Below are positions 19,219 to 48,077 of a stretch of 55,307 nt of DNA, in pieces. This DNA is from Floccifex porci (GTDB lineage Bacteria; Bacillota_I; Bacilli_A; Erysipelotrichales; Erysipelotrichaceae). Position 1 is the first letter of the stretch. Each line of letters opens with the position of its first letter. Location of the stretch: NCBI RefSeq assembly GCF_009696175.1, contig NZ_VUMM01000011.1:1-55307 (forward strand), read 5' to 3'. Under the pieces are notes generated by a model. That model did no database searches. It was not told the origin of the DNA and saw nothing but the letters and a program-made list of their open reading frames with translations. The translations under genes and the position numbers were made by a program.

Positions 19219-19224
19219 TCTATC

Positions 19225-19470
19225 AAACACGAAGAACAGGACTGTGAATTTCAACCGATTTTTAAGAAGCGAGCTATGTTTGGTGAAAGGTAGCAGAAAT
19301 TCGAGATTCAGTATCACCTGTGAGTGGCTTGGATGAAAGAAGAGTAATTCAAGACGGCATTCCCGTTAAAAGATAAGATATTGTTGGATATCTGAGTGTG
19401 AGGAATCTCGAAGAAGAGTGGTACCGCGGATTATATTCGTCTCTTTGTTTATACAAAGAGACTTTTTTTT
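19225..19470 (+). ncRNA. T-box riboswitch with terminator
   Basis: The leader carries the highly conserved T-box core GTGGTACCGCGG (19418-19429), whose TGGT bulge would pair with an uncharged tRNA NCCA end with discriminator A. Upstream is a stem I with the apical GGTGAAAGG segment and a 3' side ending ATCACCTGTGAGTGG; by analogy with other T-boxes the codon just before ACC is the specifier, giving ATC (Ile). This assignment is tentative. The terminator is a 10-bp stem GTCTCTTTGT / ACAAAGAGAC (19439-19462) and eight T. Uncharged tRNA should favour the antiterminator and allow transcription of the oxidoreductase operon. Confidence 0.93.
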
Positions 19471-19491
19471 ATTTATTACAGGAGGAGAAAT

Positions 19492-20067
19492 ATGAACCAG
19501 ACACTTGAAATTAGATGGCATGGTCGTGGTGGACAAGGTGCGAAAACTGCGGCTCTATTGTTGGCGGATGTGGCTTTTAAAACTGGAAAATATGTACAGG
19601 GATTTCCTGAATATGGTCCAGAAAGAATGGGAGCTCCCATTACTGCATACAATCGAATCAGTAATAATGTGATTCGCGTTCATTCTAATATATATACACC
19701 CGATTTAGTGGTTGTTGTAGATGAAACGTTACTGGATGCGGTAAATGTAACCGCTGGATTAAAAGAAAATGGCTCTATTATTGTGAATACAGATAAAGAC
19801 AAAGAAGAAATCCTTCCAAAATTAAAAGGATACAAAGGAAATGTATATACAGTCGATGCTCGTAAAATTTCAGTGGATGCATTAGGTAAATATTTTCCCA
19901 ATTCACCAATGTTAGCGGCAGCCGTAGCGGTAAGTAAAGTAATGGATAAAGATACTTTTATCAATGAAATGAGAGCATCTTATCAGCATAAATTTGCGAA
20001 AAAACCAGAGGTCATTGATGGAAATATGAAAGCTTTGACAATGACATTTGAAGCATTGGGATTATAA
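19492..20067 (+). CDS. porG: 2-oxoacid:ferredoxin oxidoreductase subunit gamma
   Basis: A 191-residue subunit of the four-subunit pyruvate/2-oxoisovalerate:ferredoxin oxidoreductase family. The start EIRWHGRGGQGAKTAALLLA and GFPEYGPERMGAP are typical of the gamma chain, which takes part in CoA and cofactor binding at the subunit interface. First gene of a gamma-delta-alpha-beta operon, the order found in Thermotoga- and archaea-type enzymes. AGGAGGAG precedes the ATG. The tentative Ile T-box would fit a branched-chain 2-oxoacid substrate, but pyruvate cannot be excluded from sequence. Confidence 0.88.
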   Translation: MNQTLEIRWHGRGGQGAKTAALLLADVAFKTGKYVQGFPEYGPERMGAPITAYNRISNNVIRVHSNIYTPDLVVVVDETLLDAVNVTAGLKENGSIIVNTDKDKEEILPKLKGYKGNVYTVDARKISVDALGKYFPNSPMLAAAVAVSKVMDKDTFINEMRASYQHKFAKKPEVIDGNMKALTMTFEALGL

Positions 20068-20078
20068 GGAGGAACGCT

Positions 20079-20381
20079 ATGAGATCAGATGTAAATAAAA
20101 TCAATGAACAGACACCTTATCAGGATTTAACAGAAGGACTTCAAATGTTTGCCAGTGCGACTTCTGTTGAATTCAATACAGGAGAATGGAGAACGGATAC
20201 ACCAGTTTATTTAAAAGATAAATGTAAACAGTGTTTATTATGTGTACCAACTTGTCCAGATTCAAGTATTCCGGTTGTGAATAAAAAACGTTTGGATTTT
20301 GATTATGACCACTGTAAAGGATGTGGAATTTGTGCAAAAAACTGTCCTTTTGGAGCTATTGTTATGAGGGAGGGAAGATAA
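20079..20381 (+). CDS. porD: 2-oxoacid:ferredoxin oxidoreductase delta (2[4Fe-4S]) subunit
   Basis: A 100-residue ferredoxin-like subunit with two [4Fe-4S] motifs, CKQCLLCVPTCPD and CKGCGICAKNCPF, which carry electrons from the thiamine-diphosphate site to external ferredoxin. The N-terminal 40 residues are the usual extension that packs on the other chains. AAGGAGG precedes the ATG; the gap to alpha is 1 nt. Normal length for the family. Confidence 0.9.
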   Translation: MRSDVNKINEQTPYQDLTEGLQMFASATSVEFNTGEWRTDTPVYLKDKCKQCLLCVPTCPDSSIPVVNKKRLDFDYDHCKGCGICAKNCPFGAIVMREGR

Positions 20382-20382
20382 T

Positions 20383-21564
20383 ATGGCAAGAAAAGATCGA
20401 ATGTCTGGAAATGAAGCAACGGCTTATGCGATTCGTCAGGTGAATCCAGATGTTATGCCGGCTTTTCCAATCACTCCTTCTACGGAAATTCCACAAATGG
20501 TTTCCAACTATATTGCCAATGGACAGATGGACACCGAATTTATTCCTGTTGAAAGTGAACATTCCAGTATGTCAGCTACCATTGGAGCCCAGGCAGCCGG
20601 AGCTCGCAGTTTAACCGCAACATCTTCCGCGGGTCTGGCTTTGATGTGGGAAGAATTGTTGCTGGCAGCCAGCAACCGTATGCCTTGTGTACTGACACTG
20701 GTAAACCGTACCTTATCAGGTCCAATCAATATCAACTGCGATCATACCGATGGTATGGGAGCTCGTGATACAGGATGGATTCAGATTTATGCGGAAAACA
20801 ATCAGGAAGCATATGACAATTTCATTATGGCTTATCCAATTGCGGAAAATAAAGAAGTACGATTACCGGTTATGGTATGTCAGGATGGATTTATTACCAG
20901 TCATGCGGTAGAAAATATTGAATTGCTGGAAGATGAGCAGGTTAAAAATTTTGTAGGAGAATATGAACCAGAAGAATATTTATTAAATCCGGGTAAACCA
21001 ATTGCGGTAGGACCTTATGCGATTTCAAATTATGTAATGGAAGCTCGTAAAGCACAGGAAATGGCTCTGGAAAAATCCAAAGAAGTGATTTTACAGGTAG
21101 CTGCAGATTTTGAAAAAATGGCAGGACGTCATTATGGTTTATTTGAAGAATATCGCTGTGAAGATGCCGACTATATTATGATGATCATGGGATCGGCTGC
21201 AGGAACGGCAAAAGAAGCTGTGGATGCCTTAAGAGAACAGGGAAAAAAAGTAGGAATCTTAAAACTTCGTGTATTCCGTCCTTTCCCGGCAAAAGAAATC
21301 GCAATGGCATTGAAGAATTGTAAAGCGGCTGCCATTATGGATCGTTGTGAAAGCTACAATACAAATGGAGGTCCTTTGGCAAGTGAAGTCAATGCGGCTT
21401 TATTCAGAAATAAAGTGATGATTGAAACGGTAAATTATGTCTATGGATTAGGAGGACGTGATTTTACAGTAAATCATGTATTTGATGTATTTAATGAATT
21501 GGAACAGCTGATTGAAAATGGAATTGAACCAGAACAGTATCAGTACATTGGACTGCGTAAATAG
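20383..21564 (+). CDS. porA: 2-oxoacid:ferredoxin oxidoreductase subunit alpha
   Basis: A 393-residue chain with the pyrimidine-binding domain of the thiamine diphosphate site (SGNEATAYAIRQVNPDVMPA, FPITPSTEIP) and GARDTGWIQIYAENNQEAYD, followed by the transketolase C-like domain (GSAAGTAKEAVDALREQGKKVGILKL). Sequence is close to PorA/VorB. AGGGAGG precedes the ATG. It works with the beta chain below to decarboxylate a 2-oxoacid to acyl-CoA with reduction of ferredoxin. Confidence 0.9.
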   Translation: MARKDRMSGNEATAYAIRQVNPDVMPAFPITPSTEIPQMVSNYIANGQMDTEFIPVESEHSSMSATIGAQAAGARSLTATSSAGLALMWEELLLAASNRMPCVLTLVNRTLSGPININCDHTDGMGARDTGWIQIYAENNQEAYDNFIMAYPIAENKEVRLPVMVCQDGFITSHAVENIELLEDEQVKNFVGEYEPEEYLLNPGKPIAVGPYAISNYVMEARKAQEMALEKSKEVILQVAADFEKMAGRHYGLFEEYRCEDADYIMMIMGSAAGTAKEAVDALREQGKKVGILKLRVFRPFPAKEIAMALKNCKAAAIMDRCESYNTNGGPLASEVNAALFRNKVMIETVNYVYGLGGRDFTVNHVFDVFNELEQLIENGIEPEQYQYIGLRK

Positions 21565-21575
21565 GAGGAAGAATC

Positions 21576-22517
21576 ATGGCAAAATACAATTTTAAAGAAA
21601 CCGTATCAAAACCCGATCGTTTGGCTCCTGGTCATCGTATGTGTGCTGGTTGTGGGGCAACCATTGGAGTCAGAGCGGTATTAAGAGGACTGCATGAAGG
21701 AGATCATGCGGTCATTGGAAATGCGACAGGATGTCTGGAAGTTTCTTCCTTTACGTATCCTTATACCGCATGGACAGACAGTTATATCCACAATGCGTTT
21801 GAAAATGCAGGAGCTACTTTAAGTGGAGTGGAAACGGCTTATAAGGCATTGAAGAAACGTGGAAAAATAGCAGAAGATGTAAACTATAAATTCATTACTT
21901 TTGGTGGAGATGGAGGAACGTATGATATTGGTTTCCAGTCTTTGTCAGGAGCCATGGAAAGAGGACACGATCTGACCTATGTATGTTACGACAATGGAGC
22001 GTATATGAATACAGGGATTCAGCGTTCCAGTGCCACTCCTAAATATGCCGATACTACAACTACACCGGTTGGATCCCAGTCCAATGGTAAGATGCAAAGC
22101 CGTAAAGATCTGGCTTCTATTATTGCCGATCACAATGTAGCTTATGTGGCACAAACGACATTAACACGTGATTTTAAAGACATTCATACAAAATCAGAAA
22201 AAGCTATTTATACACCAGGCGCTTCTTTTCTGAATGTATTGACACCATGTCCAAGAGGATGGCGTTATGATGCCAGCGATGTAATGGAAATTTGCCGTTT
22301 AGCAGTTGAAACGTGTTACTGGCCACTGTTTGAAGTGGATCATGGGCAATGGCATTTAAACTATATGCCAAAAGAAAAACTTCCAATTGAAGAATTTTTA
22401 AAAACACAAGGACGTTTTAAACATTTGTTCAAACCAGGAAATGAACACCTGATTCAGGAAATCCAGGAAGAAGTGGATCGCAGATGGGAAGATCTGCTTT
22501 ATAAATGCAATCGATAG
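21576..22517 (+). CDS. porB: 2-oxoacid:ferredoxin oxidoreductase subunit beta
   Basis: A 313-residue chain that binds thiamine diphosphate and the proximal [4Fe-4S] cluster: HRMCAGCGA at the start, NATGCLEVSS, and GDGGTYDIG...YDNGAYMNTG, the diphosphate/metal-binding GDG-x(n)-N motif. AGGAGGA precedes the ATG. The stop codon overlaps the terminator at 22517. Substrate range (pyruvate or branched-chain acids) is open. Confidence 0.9.
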   Translation: MAKYNFKETVSKPDRLAPGHRMCAGCGATIGVRAVLRGLHEGDHAVIGNATGCLEVSSFTYPYTAWTDSYIHNAFENAGATLSGVETAYKALKKRGKIAEDVNYKFITFGGDGGTYDIGFQSLSGAMERGHDLTYVCYDNGAYMNTGIQRSSATPKYADTTTTPVGSQSNGKMQSRKDLASIIADHNVAYVAQTTLTRDFKDIHTKSEKAIYTPGASFLNVLTPCPRGWRYDASDVMEICRLAVETCYWPLFEVDHGQWHLNYMPKEKLPIEEFLKTQGRFKHLFKPGNEHLIQEIQEEVDRRWEDLLYKCNR

Positions 22518-26699: not shown

Positions 26700-26721
26700 A
26701 TCTCTACAAGTGAATATTTGT

Positions 26722-26838
26722 CATGACAGGGGTGCCTTTGGCTGAGATGGTTTACCAATCCCTTATGACCTGATCTAGTTAATACTAGCGTAGGGAGTCA
26801 TATCAATACATATATGGCGTCTACCGACGTCTTTTTTT
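26722..26838 (+). ncRNA. TPP riboswitch (THI element) with terminator
   Basis: The aptamer runs from P1 ATGAC (26723-26727) to GTCAT (26796-26800) and contains the conserved GGGGTGCC, GGCTGAGATGG, CCCTTATGACCTGATC and GCGTAGGGA segments of thiamine pyrophosphate riboswitches. A terminator follows: GGCGTC (26816-26821) with GACGTC (26826-26831), one G-U pair, loop TACC and seven T. High TPP should stabilise the aptamer and stop transcription before thiX. Confidence 0.95.
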
Positions 26839-26855
26839 ATGAAAGGAGGTACAAT

Positions 26856-27617
26856 TTGAAAACCAAACAAAAAGTTATGATGCCCATTCTTGTATTTATT
26901 CTTGTCATTTCAATCTGGGAAATGAGTGTAAGAGCCTTTCATATCAGTTTATATGTTTTACCGGCTCCTTCTAAAATTGTAATGGCAATACTAGATAACT
27001 TTGACATTTTATGGATGCATTCAATGGTCACATTAAAAGAAGCCTTGATTGGTTTGGTAATCAGTACACTTCTTGCGATCTGGATTGCCATTGGAATGGA
27101 TCTTTCAAAAGTGTTTAAAACCAGTATATACCCTTATCTGATTGTGACACAGACCGTTCCCATTATGGTATTAGGACCTCTTTTTTCCATCTGGTTGGGA
27201 TTTGGTCTGGCCCCAAAAGTATTGATCGTTATTTTCATGTGTTTCTTTCCCGTTGCGATTTCTTTTTGCGATGCGTTAGGACAAGTAGATGAAAAACAGG
27301 TGAATCTATTAAAAAGTTTTGGGGCCAGTACATTTCAAATATATAAAATGATCAAAATTCCATCTGGAGCTCTGGGTTTATTTTCAGGATTAAAGGTGGC
27401 AGCTACCTACTGTATAGGAGGAGCCATTGTTGGAGAATGGTTATCGAGCAGTGCTGGATTGGGATATTATATGCTGCGAGTAAAGAATGGCTATATGCTG
27501 GATAAAGTATTTGCTTGTGTGGTAATGATTATTATCTGGAGTATTTTATTGAATCTTGCGGTAACCTTTATCGAATATATGGTTTTTCCGCATTTAAAGA
27601 AAGGAAAAAGAAAATGA
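26856..27617 (+). CDS. thiX: ABC transporter permease for thiamine pyrimidine precursor
   Basis: A 253-residue membrane protein with six hydrophobic helices and the permease EAA-type loop ([23 protein letters not shown]). It belongs to the SsuC/ThiX family. The start is a TTG at 26856, preceded by AAAGGAGG; an ATG further upstream would run through the riboswitch terminator and is unlikely. First gene behind the TPP riboswitch. With ThiY and ThiZ it imports a pyrimidine precursor of thiamine, by analogy N-formyl-4-amino-5-aminomethyl-2-methylpyrimidine. Confidence 0.88.
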
Positions 27618-28618
27618 AAAAAATTATATCTGCCCTTTTATCAGGGGCAATGGCTTTAACAATGGTTGCCTGTTCCAATAAACAGGATAATTCATCTAAC
27701 GATTTAACAAAAGTAACTTTAATGCTGGATTATACACCCAATACAAATCATACCGGATTCTATGTAGCTTTAGAAAAAGGATATTATGAAGAAGCTGGTT
27801 TAGATGTTGAAATCATTGAACCAGGAGACAATGCGACAACAAGTATGGTTGCCACTGGAAAAGCGGATTTTGGAGTGTCTTATCAGGAAGATGTGACATA
27901 TGCTTTAACAGCACAAGAAGCTTTACCAATTAAAGCCATCGCAACCATCATTCAACATAACACATCTGGTTTTGTTTCTTTAAAAGATGCCAATATTACT
28001 TGTGCTAAAGATTTTGAAGGAAAAACATATGCTGGATGGGGAGCACCAAGTGAAGAAGCAGTCATTCAGGCGGTTATGAAAAAAGAAGGAGCCGACTATT
28101 CAAAATTAAGAATTGTTGGTGCTGATGGTTCTGGAATTGGTGGATTGTCAGCTGAAACAGGAGAAGATAAAGTCAATCTTCACTGGGAATTCTATGGATG
28201 GGCTGTATTAAGAGCAATCATGGATGGATATGATGTCAATTATTTACCATTAAATGAATTGGATTCACGTCTGGATTACTATACACCTGTTATTATCACA
28301 AATGATGATATGATCGAAAACAACAGTGAAATCTGTGAAAAATTCATGGAAGCAACTAAAAAAGGATATGAATATGCGATCGAAAATCCAGATGAATCGG
28401 CTGAAATTCTGCATGATAAAGCATTAAGTGATCTAGACTTAGAATTCTTAAAGAAATCACAGGAATATTTAAGTCAGCAATATGCATTGGATGCCGATAG
28501 TTGGGGTGTAATGAAAGATGAAGTCTGGGATAACTATACGGATTTTATGTTCGAATATGGATTGATCGATCATAAAATTGAAGCTAGCCAGCAATATACA
28601 AACGAATTTTTAGGATAG
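27614..28618 (+). CDS. thiY: Pyrimidine-precursor binding lipoprotein
   Basis: A 334-residue solute-binding lipoprotein: signal peptide with lipobox TMVACS (Cys about 20), then a THI5/NMT1-like domain ([45 protein letters not shown]). ThiY proteins deliver formylated or free pyrimidine to ThiX. It overlaps thiX by 4 nt (ATGA). Controlled by the TPP riboswitch, which strengthens the thiamine assignment. Confidence 0.88.
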
Positions 28619-28625
28619 GAAACAT

Positions 28626-29360
28626 ATGAAGCTTTGTGTAGAGAATTTATCAATTTCTTTTGATAAACAGTTAATATTAAATCATATCGATTTTCAGATT
28701 CGACAGGGAGAATTTGTGGCTTTGTTAGGGCCAAGCGGATGTGGAAAATCGACTATATTAAATATATTAGCGGGTTTACTTTCAAAAGAAACAGGAATTA
28801 TTAAAGTAGACAATCAGGAAATTAAAGGATTAAGCGATCATTTTGCTTATATGCCACAAAGTGATTTATTATTGCCATGGAAAACGATACTGGATAATGT
28901 GACTTTATATGGACAGATCAATCACGATTCAAAGGCGAAAGAAAACGCATTAAAAGAATTCAAAACATTTGGATTGGATGGATACCAGAATTCTTATCCG
29001 GATCAGTTATCGGGTGGTATGAGACAAAGAGCTGCTTTTTTAAGAACCGCTTTATGCAAAGCAGATATTTTATTACTGGATGAACCTTTTGGAGCCCTGG
29101 ATGTGATTACTCGAAATGATATGCAGGACTGGCTGCTGGATCTAAGAAAACAATACAATCGAACCACTTTACTGGTTACACATGATATAGATGAGGCTTT
29201 ATTTTTAGCGGATCGGATTTTGATTTTAAGTCATCGTCCGGCTTCGATTCTAAAAGAAATAGATTTATCCAATGTATCAAAAAGTAGAGACTGGCTGTTT
29301 GAACAGGGGACTCTAAAAAAAGAAATATTTGAATTATTAAAAGGGGAAAACAATGCATGA
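28626..29360 (+). CDS. thiZ: ABC transporter ATPase for pyrimidine precursor
   Basis: A 244-residue ATPase with Walker A GPSGCGKST, Q-loop QSDLLLPW, signature LSGGMRQR, Walker B ILLLDEPF followed by GALD, and the switch His in VTHD. AGGAAA precedes the ATG. It drives the ThiXY importer. It overlaps the TatD-like gene by 8 nt, which is therefore part of the riboswitch-controlled unit. Confidence 0.9.
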   Translation: MKLCVENLSISFDKQLILNHIDFQIRQGEFVALLGPSGCGKSTILNILAGLLSKETGIIKVDNQEIKGLSDHFAYMPQSDLLLPWKTILDNVTLYGQINHDSKAKENALKEFKTFGLDGYQNSYPDQLSGGMRQRAAFLRTALCKADILLLDEPFGALDVITRNDMQDWLLDLRKQYNRTTLLVTHDIDEALFLADRILILSHRPASILKEIDLSNVSKSRDWLFEQGTLKKEIFELLKGENNA

Positions 29361-46049: not shown

Positions 46050-46066
46050 AACAACCTTTCTAGTCC

Positions 46067-46159
46067 ATAAAAAAAGCTGGACAAATACATTGCCCAGACG
46101 GTCGGCTCATTTAAAATCATACTTCATGTAGTTAATTCTACTTCCGTCAGTCGTATGAT
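46067..46159 (-). ncRNA. ZTP (pfl motif) riboswitch with terminator
   Basis: Read on the minus strand, P1 is ATCATAC (46159-46153) with GTATGAT (46122-46116), the conserved GACTGACGGAA lies between P1 and a GTAG/CTAC hairpin, and the 3' domain reads GCCGACCGTCTGGGC (about 46106-46092), the hallmark of ZTP aptamers. The terminator stem CTGGGCAA / TTGTCCAG (46097-46077) shares bases with the 3' domain, followed by CTTTTTTT. ZTP binding should hold the aptamer and allow transcription of the FNT gene. The predicted start point coincides with the first base of P1. Confidence 0.92.
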
Positions 46160-46165
46160 GGTTCA

Positions 46166-46194
46166 ATTATATTATTTTATTTTTGCTTTTTCAA
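46166..46194 (-). promoter_or_regulatory. Promoter of ZTP-FNT transcript
   Basis: On the minus strand TTGAAA (46194-46189), 17 bp, TATAAT (46171-46166). The +1 would be about 46159, the first base of the riboswitch P1 stem. Confidence 0.85.
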
Positions 46195-46238: not shown

Positions 46239-48077
46239 ATGGCAGAAACAAAAGTGAAGGAGACACAAGTCGCTGCAGAAGAAGTTGTAGAAAAGAAAAC
46301 AACAAAGAAGCGTACTAAAAAAGCTGCAGATGAAACAAAAGCAGTGAAGAAGACAACAAAAAAAGCGACTAAGAAACCATCCGAAAAAGAAGAAAAACCA
46401 AAGAAAACAACAAAGAAAGCGGAAAAGAAAGAAAAAGATGAAGTAAAAGCAGTAAAGAAAACTCGTAAAAAAGCTGTGAAAAAAGATAATGTTGAAAAAA
46501 CCGCTAAAGAAGAAAAACCAGTTGAAGAAGTAAAAGTGGAAGAAACAAAACCAGTTGTAGAAGTAACACCTGAAGTTGTTGAAGAAGCCAAAGAGATGGC
46601 AGAACAGGTAGTTGAAACTTATGGTCCAAGAAAGAGTGTGGCTTTTATTGGTTCTGAATGTTTCCCATTTGTGAAAACAGGTGGTTTAGGGGATGTAATG
46701 TATGCACTTCCAAAAGCACTGGTAGACTTGAATTGTGATGTCCGTGTACTGATTCCAAACTATAAATGCATTCCTTATAAATATAAAGAAAAAATGGTTT
46801 ATAGAGGATCTTTCTATATGGATCTGTGTTCCGATGGTAGAAAATTCTATGTAGGAATTATGGAATATATTAACGATGGTGTAATTTATGATTTTATTGA
46901 CAATGAAGAATTCTTCTCTTCAGGAAATCCTTATACAAGCATTGTAGGAGATATTCCTAAATTCTGTTATTTCGCAAAAGCTGCTTTAGCTGCTTTAAAT
47001 TACATGAACTGGTCACCAGATGTCATTCATTGCCATGACTGGCAGGCTGCATTGATCCCAGTATATGTGAAAACTGTATTTGCTCCAACTCCAGTAGGTC
47101 GTGCGAAAACTATTTTAACAGTGCATAATTTACGTTTCCAGGGAATTTATAATGTTCCAACGATTCAATACTGGACAAATCTTCCTTATCATGTATTTAA
47201 TGTAGATGGTTTAGGACAGGGAAATAACGATGCCAATATGTTAAAAGGTGGATTGGCTTATGCGGATATGATTACCACTGTAAGTCATACATATGCTAAT
47301 GAAATTCAGACATGGGAATATGGAGAAAAACTGGATGCTCATTTACGTTATCACAATCCAAAATTACATGGAATTGTAAATGGAATCGATATTGATATCT
47401 GGAATCCAGCTACAGATGAATATTTAGCTTCTAATTATGATGTTACCAATGTTGTATCTAATAAAGTTGGAAATAAAATGGCATTACAGACAAAATTAGG
47501 ACTGGATCAGGATCATTCTAAATTTGTGATTGGTCTGATTTCTCGTTTAACCGATCAGAAAGGATTGGATCTGATTAATGCGGTATTACCAGAAATTGTG
47601 GATGACTTTACTCAGGTTGTGATTTTAGGAACAGGAGATAAAGTATACGAAGATGCATTCAGAAAATTTGAAAATGATTATAGAGGAAATGTATCAAGCA
47701 GTATCATGTATGATGAAGCTCGTTCTCATGAAATTTATGCAGGGGTTGATGCATTATTAGTTCCTAGTCGTTTTGAACCATGTGGTTTAACACAATTGAT
47801 TGCGATGCGCTATGGAACTGTACCAATCGTTCGTGAAACAGGTGGATTAAAAGATACAGTTGCACCATATAACAAAAATACAAATGATGGAAATGGATTC
47901 ACATTTGATCGTTATGATGCTGGATTATTACTGGATGCCATCAATCGTGCAAAAACTTTATATTTCAACAATCGCTGGTGCTGGGATGAAATGGTACAAA
48001 GAGATATGGCCAAAGATGTATCCTGGGAAAATTCCGCAAAACAATATAAAGATTTATATGTAGATGTTACAAAATAG
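46239..48077 (+). CDS. glgA: Glycogen synthase with histone H1-like N-terminal tail
   Basis: A 612-residue protein. Residues about 132-612 are a bacterial GT5 glycogen synthase: KTGGLGD at 146-152 (ADP-glucose binding), HDWQAALIP, HNLRFQGIY, and SRFEPCGLTQL in the C-terminal domain; this makes alpha-1,4-glucan. Residues 1-130 are a low-complexity tail: Lys/Thr/Ala repeats such as KKTTKKATKKP up to about residue 85, then acidic Glu/Val-rich sequence. Ordinary GlgA is about 480 residues and starts near residue 131. GGAGG precedes the ATG at 46239. No other glg genes are near. The tail resembles histone H1-like or polymer-binding tails; role unknown. Confidence 0.9.
   Translation: MAETKVKETQVAAEEVVEKKTTKKRTKKAADETKAVKKTTKKATKKPSEKEEKPKKTTKKAEKKEKDEVKAVKKTRKKAVKKDNVEKTAKEEKPVEEVKVEETKPVVEVTPEVVEEAKEMAEQVVETYGPRKSVAFIGSECFPFVKTGGLGDVMYALPKALVDLNCDVRVLIPNYKCIPYKYKEKMVYRGSFYMDLCSDGRKFYVGIMEYINDGVIYDFIDNEEFFSSGNPYTSIVGDIPKFCYFAKAALAALNYMNWSPDVIHCHDWQAALIPVYVKTVFAPTPVGRAKTILTVHNLRFQGIYNVPTIQYWTNLPYHVFNVDGLGQGNNDANMLKGGLAYADMITTVSHTYANEIQTWEYGEKLDAHLRYHNPKLHGIVNGIDIDIWNPATDEYLASNYDVTNVVSNKVGNKMALQTKLGLDQDHSKFVIGLISRLTDQKGLDLINAVLPEIVDDFTQVVILGTGDKVYEDAFRKFENDYRGNVSSSIMYDEARSHEIYAGVDALLVPSRFEPCGLTQLIAMRYGTVPIVRETGGLKDTVAPYNKNTNDGNGFTFDRYDAGLLLDAINRAKTLYFNNRWCWDEMVQRDMAKDVSWENSAKQYKDLYVDVTK

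Follow-up and report, generated by a model that had tools for sequence, protein, structure and literature searches.

Here, we identify a ZTP/ZMP riboswitch directly upstream of a gene for a short formate/nitrite transporter (FNT) in Floccifex porci, and we find a ZTP aptamer directly 5′ of an FNT gene in 20 genomes, this one included. We consider it likely that a ZTP/ZMP ON-switch controls a one-gene transcript for the short FNT, that the channel lets formate enter from outside and that formate–tetrahydrofolate (THF) ligase (Fhs) uses this formate to restore 10-formyl-THF. On balance, we also favor a broader model in which formate supply is an interchangeable module under the ZTP riboswitch, which would act on pyruvate formate-lyase (PFL) where the genome encodes this enzyme, i.e., make, or, where it does not, on an FNT channel, mostly of the short type without the PflB-docking helix, i.e., take. 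For this known class of riboswitches, FNT is a new target, and its complementarity with PFL is the new point.

The riboswitch lies in a 55,307-nt stretch of contig NZ_VUMM01000011.1, referred to here as the window (Table 1). The initial annotation had placed between positions 46067 and 46194 a complete ZTP aptamer on the minus strand, a consensus promoter, a P1 helix beginning at the predicted +1 and a terminator overlapping the 3′ domain of the aptamer. All of these elements were borne out, and the limits are correct, running from the promoter through the end of the terminator. The aptamer matches RF01750 over its full length and well above the gathering score of 39 bits (E = 4e-6 for the window); a covariance model built from its own lineage (R1), which has the window itself in its training set, gives 86.6 bits. 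In an alignment of 17 aptamers, i.e., 16 FNT-linked aptamers and the fhs-linked aptamer of the window genome, P1 and P2 covary, with 9 of 15 pairs altered on both sides and a covariation score of 0.466 vs. 0.206 in shuffles and at most 0.125 in slid versions, while the core residues are invariant. The two pseudoknot strands are complementary in the window; because their alignment columns are nearly all invariant, covariation is uninformative for this element. Among 17 promoter-like sites in 4 kb, this promoter scores best, and an equally good promoter arose on that strand in 27 of 5,000 Markov shuffles of the upstream stretch. Because the −10 box ends at 46166, the predicted +1 coincides with the first base of P1.

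Table 1. Features of the ZTP riboswitch and the FNT gene in the window
Feature	Position	Strand	Evidence or remark
−35 box TTGAAA	46189..46194	−	11/12 consensus together with −10 box, 17-nt spacer
−10 box TATAAT	46166..46171	−	predicted +1 near 46159
ZTP/ZMP riboswitch aptamer (RF01750)	46085..46164	−	covariance model, 54.3 bits, model 1-86/86
P1, ATCATAC 46159-46153 / GTATGAT 46122-46116, around P2	46116..46159	−	conserved pairs, two-sided changes in homologs
P2, GTAG 46141-46138 / CTAC 46131-46128, inside P1		−	conserved pairs, two-sided changes in homologs
Pseudoknot, J1/2 GACGG 46148-46144 with L3 CCGTC 46101-46097	46097..46148	−	sequence complementarity
P3 stem-loop GCC...GGC	46092..46106	−	covariance model, alignment
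Intrinsic terminator, 5′ arm CTGGGCAA 46097-46090, 3′ arm TTGTCCAG 46084-46077, T7 46075-46069	46069..46097	−	
Shine-Dalgarno AAAGG (probable), 5 nt 5′ of ATG	46055..46059	−	sequence
Short formate/nitrite transporter (FNT), 199 aa	45450..46049	−	PF01226, 97.8 bits

The terminator is formed by CTGGGCAA and TTGTCCAG followed by seven T residues, and no other terminator-like site occurs within 4 kb. Its 5′ arm combines the 3′ strand of P3 with the final base of the pseudoknot strand and, thus, P3 and the expression platform are mutually exclusive. The fold with P1, P2 and the terminator has an energy of −17.1 kcal/mol vs. −10.8 kcal/mol for P1, P2 and P3 calculated without the pseudoknot; therefore, read-through needs the aptamer to be held, as expected of an ON-switch. 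In the pfl riboswitch of C. beijerinckii, likewise, only bound Z keeps a terminator invader from displacing P3 (PMC10085676). The window element shares aptamer sequence and fold as well as a P3-invading terminator with known ZTP switches (RF01750; C. beijerinckii pfl, T. carboxydivorans), and they have the predicted ON logic and an fhs/purH/pfl regulon in common. By membership in this class, the element is predicted to bind ZTP or ZMP and to act as a transcriptional ON-switch. It differs in the gene controlled: the known switches act on PFL or on enzymes of folate or purine metabolism, this one on an FNT channel. An FNT gene is not named as a ZTP target in the available parts of PMC2864571, PMC7266159, PMC9481103 and PMC7337938. 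In two related loci, L003 (2912-2992) and L032 (2911-2991), the aptamer stops 8 to 9 nt before the FNT start and there is no terminator. As judged from this layout, with no room for a terminator and an aptamer reaching the start-codon region, these loci suggest control at the level of translation; the ZTP-FNT pairing would then have stayed the same while its control shifted away from transcription.

The first gene behind the riboswitch had been read as an FNT channel, and this assignment held: the 199-residue protein matches PF01226 far above the cut-off of 34.6 bits, has the FNT fold and has the pore residues of FocA. The latter are T53 (FocA T91) and H155 (FocA H209), which are invariant across the 20 ZTP-linked FNTs and whose FocA counterparts are needed for formate uptake (PMC11841067). 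The window protein also shares the LFT and GFEH motifs with FocA, and K106 aligns with FocA K156. An AlphaFold2 model built with 13 homologs (pLDDT 89.7) has the helix order of an FNT protomer; its best Foldseek match is a formate-bound structure of the formate channel (3klz, TMq 0.85), and the fold resembles FocA with TMq of 0.85 to 0.87. The protein scores 60 bits against the FocA equivalog TIGR04060, which has a cut-off of 290 bits, and being below the NCBIfam FocA cut-offs it is an FNT but not FocA. In E. coli, the N-terminal helix of FocA docks PflB. The window FNT, with 199 residues vs. 285 in FocA, begins near FocA residue 29, its residue 4 being aligned with FocA residue 32, and, therefore, is without this helix. 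From the regulon and the missing PFL described below, we infer that the window protein transports formate. The short FNT branch, so far annotated at the family level alone, would thereby gain a likely substrate and role.

The ZTP-FNT pairing recurs in different contexts. Among 80 related loci from GTDB genomes, 15 carry an aptamer directly 5′ of the FNT gene and none has a ZTP aptamer elsewhere in the stretch. Surveys of two orders with 196 genomes each (392 genomes) add short ZTP-linked FNTs in G300, G402 and G416 (order of Coprococcus catus) and a long FNT in G289. Coprococcus catus, which has been cultured, carries a ZTP-FNT pair itself and gave no PFL hit. The gene neighborhoods of the pairs vary between loci, and on the FNT tree the ZTP trait needs at least five changes, gains or losses, on well-supported branches. 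A pattern search of all loci for weak or overlooked aptamers at short FNT genes without one found none, and the R1 model found no aptamer in close relatives without a ZTP-FNT pair even at weak thresholds; the absence of the aptamer from these loci, therefore, looks real. The long FNT (G289:C78:1701-2591, locus L103) belongs to a different subfamily and is 28% identical to the window protein; in its genome there is no PFL match, and fhs and purH are likewise under ZTP aptamers. This FNT retains an N-terminal extension and, thus, we rejected a missing N-terminal helix as a general rule for ZTP-linked FNTs. We also rejected operon-level control of the FNT locus: neighbors vary among loci and the window FNT gene faces an oppositely oriented gene, which points to FNT as the target. 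The best explanation is that the transcript under the window switch contains one gene. In Eubacterium plexicaudatum, apparently the same FNT locus occurs on two contigs (L026 and L076), with one copy frameshifted, and this looks like an assembly duplicate or a decaying copy.

The other targets of the riboswitch class in these genomes lie close to formate in metabolism. The window genome has one further ZTP aptamer, which is located 5′ of fhs. Among the 20 genomes, Fhs is encoded behind a ZTP aptamer by coordinates in the window genome (G000), G196, G198, G204, G205 and G208, and by reading in G300, G402 and G289. Seven of the 20 ZTP-FNT genomes have purH/AICAR transformylase behind a ZTP aptamer (G196, G209 and G210, and by reading G300, G402, G416 and G289). 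Because FNT, fhs and purH each lie behind ZTP aptamers, the formate channel, Fhs and PurH are three consecutive needs under one sensor class. FolD, which is encoded in the window genome and in nearly all others, provides a further route to formyl-THF, from serine; formate is thus not necessarily essential and may help these cells without being required.

PFL is a known ZTP target and gave the motif its name (PMC2864571). Canonical PFL (TIGR01255 above cut-off) was not found in the window genome, which is 98.8% complete. Counting this genome, 17 of the 20 with a ZTP-FNT pair are without canonical PFL; the three that have it are G204, G208 and G210. Across the two orders, PFL is present in 0 of 9 ZTP-FNT genomes vs. 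128 of the 170 remaining genomes with an FNT (p = 7e-6 by Fisher's test, uncorrected for kinship and overstating independence, given the relatedness of the genomes and the many incomplete MAGs among them). In the same 392 genomes, a ZTP aptamer lies 5′ of PFL in 52 and 5′ of FNT in nine, and none has both. In seven of the 52 (G346, G338, G362, G378, G409, G320 and G192), about 0.8 kb (~800 nt) separates the aptamer from the canonical PFL gene, room for one gene. Weighing against the model, a ZTP aptamer is absent from many FNT genes of genomes that lack PFL. We rejected the rule that a short FNT predicts the absence of PFL: it holds in the window's order, with PFL missing from 11 of 12 genomes that have a short FNT, but fails in Lachnospirales, several of whose genomes have PFL together with a short FNT and no ZTP aptamer. 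Thus, the ZTP link predicts PFL absence better than the short FNT. The window genome encodes three glycyl-radical enzymes of the PFL2-3 type, all well below all equivalog cut-offs; for one of them, the score was obtained with an incomplete sequence. Genes for a pyruvate:ferredoxin-oxidoreductase-like complex, i.e., a formate-free route from pyruvate, lie within the window. The best reading of this distribution is that ZTP often acts on PFL where formate can be made and on the channel where it cannot. We found no report of ZTP-FNT as a counterpart of PFL in the literature searched, which excluded the discovery paper (Kim et al. 2015) and supplements.

We suggest the following sequence of events. 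A shortage of 10-formyl-THF would stall AICAR transformylase, and ZMP/ZTP would accumulate. Bound ZMP/ZTP would hold P3 and the pseudoknot so that the terminator could not invade, the FNT mRNA would be completed and the channel made. The channel would admit outside formate, which Fhs, with its own ZTP aptamer in the window genome, would join to THF to give 10-formyl-THF. Once 10-formyl-THF is restored, purine synthesis would resume and ZTP would fall. The steps up to the RNA are predicted from class membership, and the substrate and direction from the regulon and the missing PFL. Formate uptake is favored over keeping formate inside because 17 of the 20 genomes are without canonical PFL and probably have no bulk formate to keep, and because fhs and/or purH are under the same riboswitch class in many ZTP-FNT genomes.

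The substrate could be another small monoanion (nitrite, hydrosulfide, acetate, lactate or bicarbonate), with the ZTP link reflecting a general growth-arrest or pH response. Several anions are carried by FNT members, hydrosulfide channels and LciA match the structural model almost as well as the formate channel does, and the protein scores far under the FocA equivalog cut-off. We nevertheless regard this as unlikely, because the other ZTP targets in the same genomes, fhs and purH, are one and two steps downstream of formate, because in G289 the aptamer is also found on a separate long FNT alongside fhs and purH, and because elsewhere the same aptamer precedes PFL, the enzyme that makes formate.

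Another alternative is that ZTP switches on the export of internally made formate. In its favor, FocA is bidirectional (PMC11841067), PFL occurs in three of the genomes with a ZTP-FNT pair and the window genome encodes PFL2-3-type glycyl-radical enzymes. ZTP, however, signals a lack of formyl-THF, when loss of formate would harm the cell; moreover, most ZTP-FNT genomes are without canonical PFL and the short FNT is without the N-terminal stretch that docks PflB in FocA, and we consider export highly improbable. Still less credible is that the aptamer arrived next to FNT by chance or inherited hitchhiking without physiological meaning, or that its ligand response was lost. ZTP aptamers are common in the surveyed orders, at about 0.5 per genome, a point in favor of this reading. 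Against this, the pairing is retained across different gene neighborhoods and found on a long FNT too, the aptamer core is invariant while the helices covary, and well-supported branches of the FNT tree force the minimum of five gains or losses.

A parallel for formate uptake is found in Lactobacillus bulgaricus, which is without PFL and is fed formate by Streptococcus thermophilus (PMC6951406). This system shares with our proposal a PFL-less cell that uses outside formate as a purine precursor (PMC6951406); unlike there, our reading implies a ZTP-controlled channel dedicated to this uptake, and there is no known partner organism. If our model is correct, ZTP-linked FNT genes mark bacteria that use the formate of their neighbors for purine synthesis, making cross-feeding a predictable trait. 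The ZTP regulon would then extend from making formyl-folate to importing its precursor, and the mutual exclusion with PFL would serve as a genomic marker of formate dependence in gut and rumen bacteria.

The window contains further regulatory elements on the plus strand. A T-box leader (96.5 bits) precedes genes for 2-oxoacid/pyruvate:ferredoxin oxidoreductase subunits (19223-22517), which seem an unusual T-box target. At 26718-29360, a TPP riboswitch precedes an ABC transporter whose binding protein is NMT1/THI5-like; this is ordinary thiamine-precursor uptake. Also on this strand, the glycogen synthase GlgA (46239-48077) has an N-terminal extension of ~130 residues that lies outside the family model, is enriched in Lys, Ala, Thr and Glu and resembles a tail in the L003 relative.
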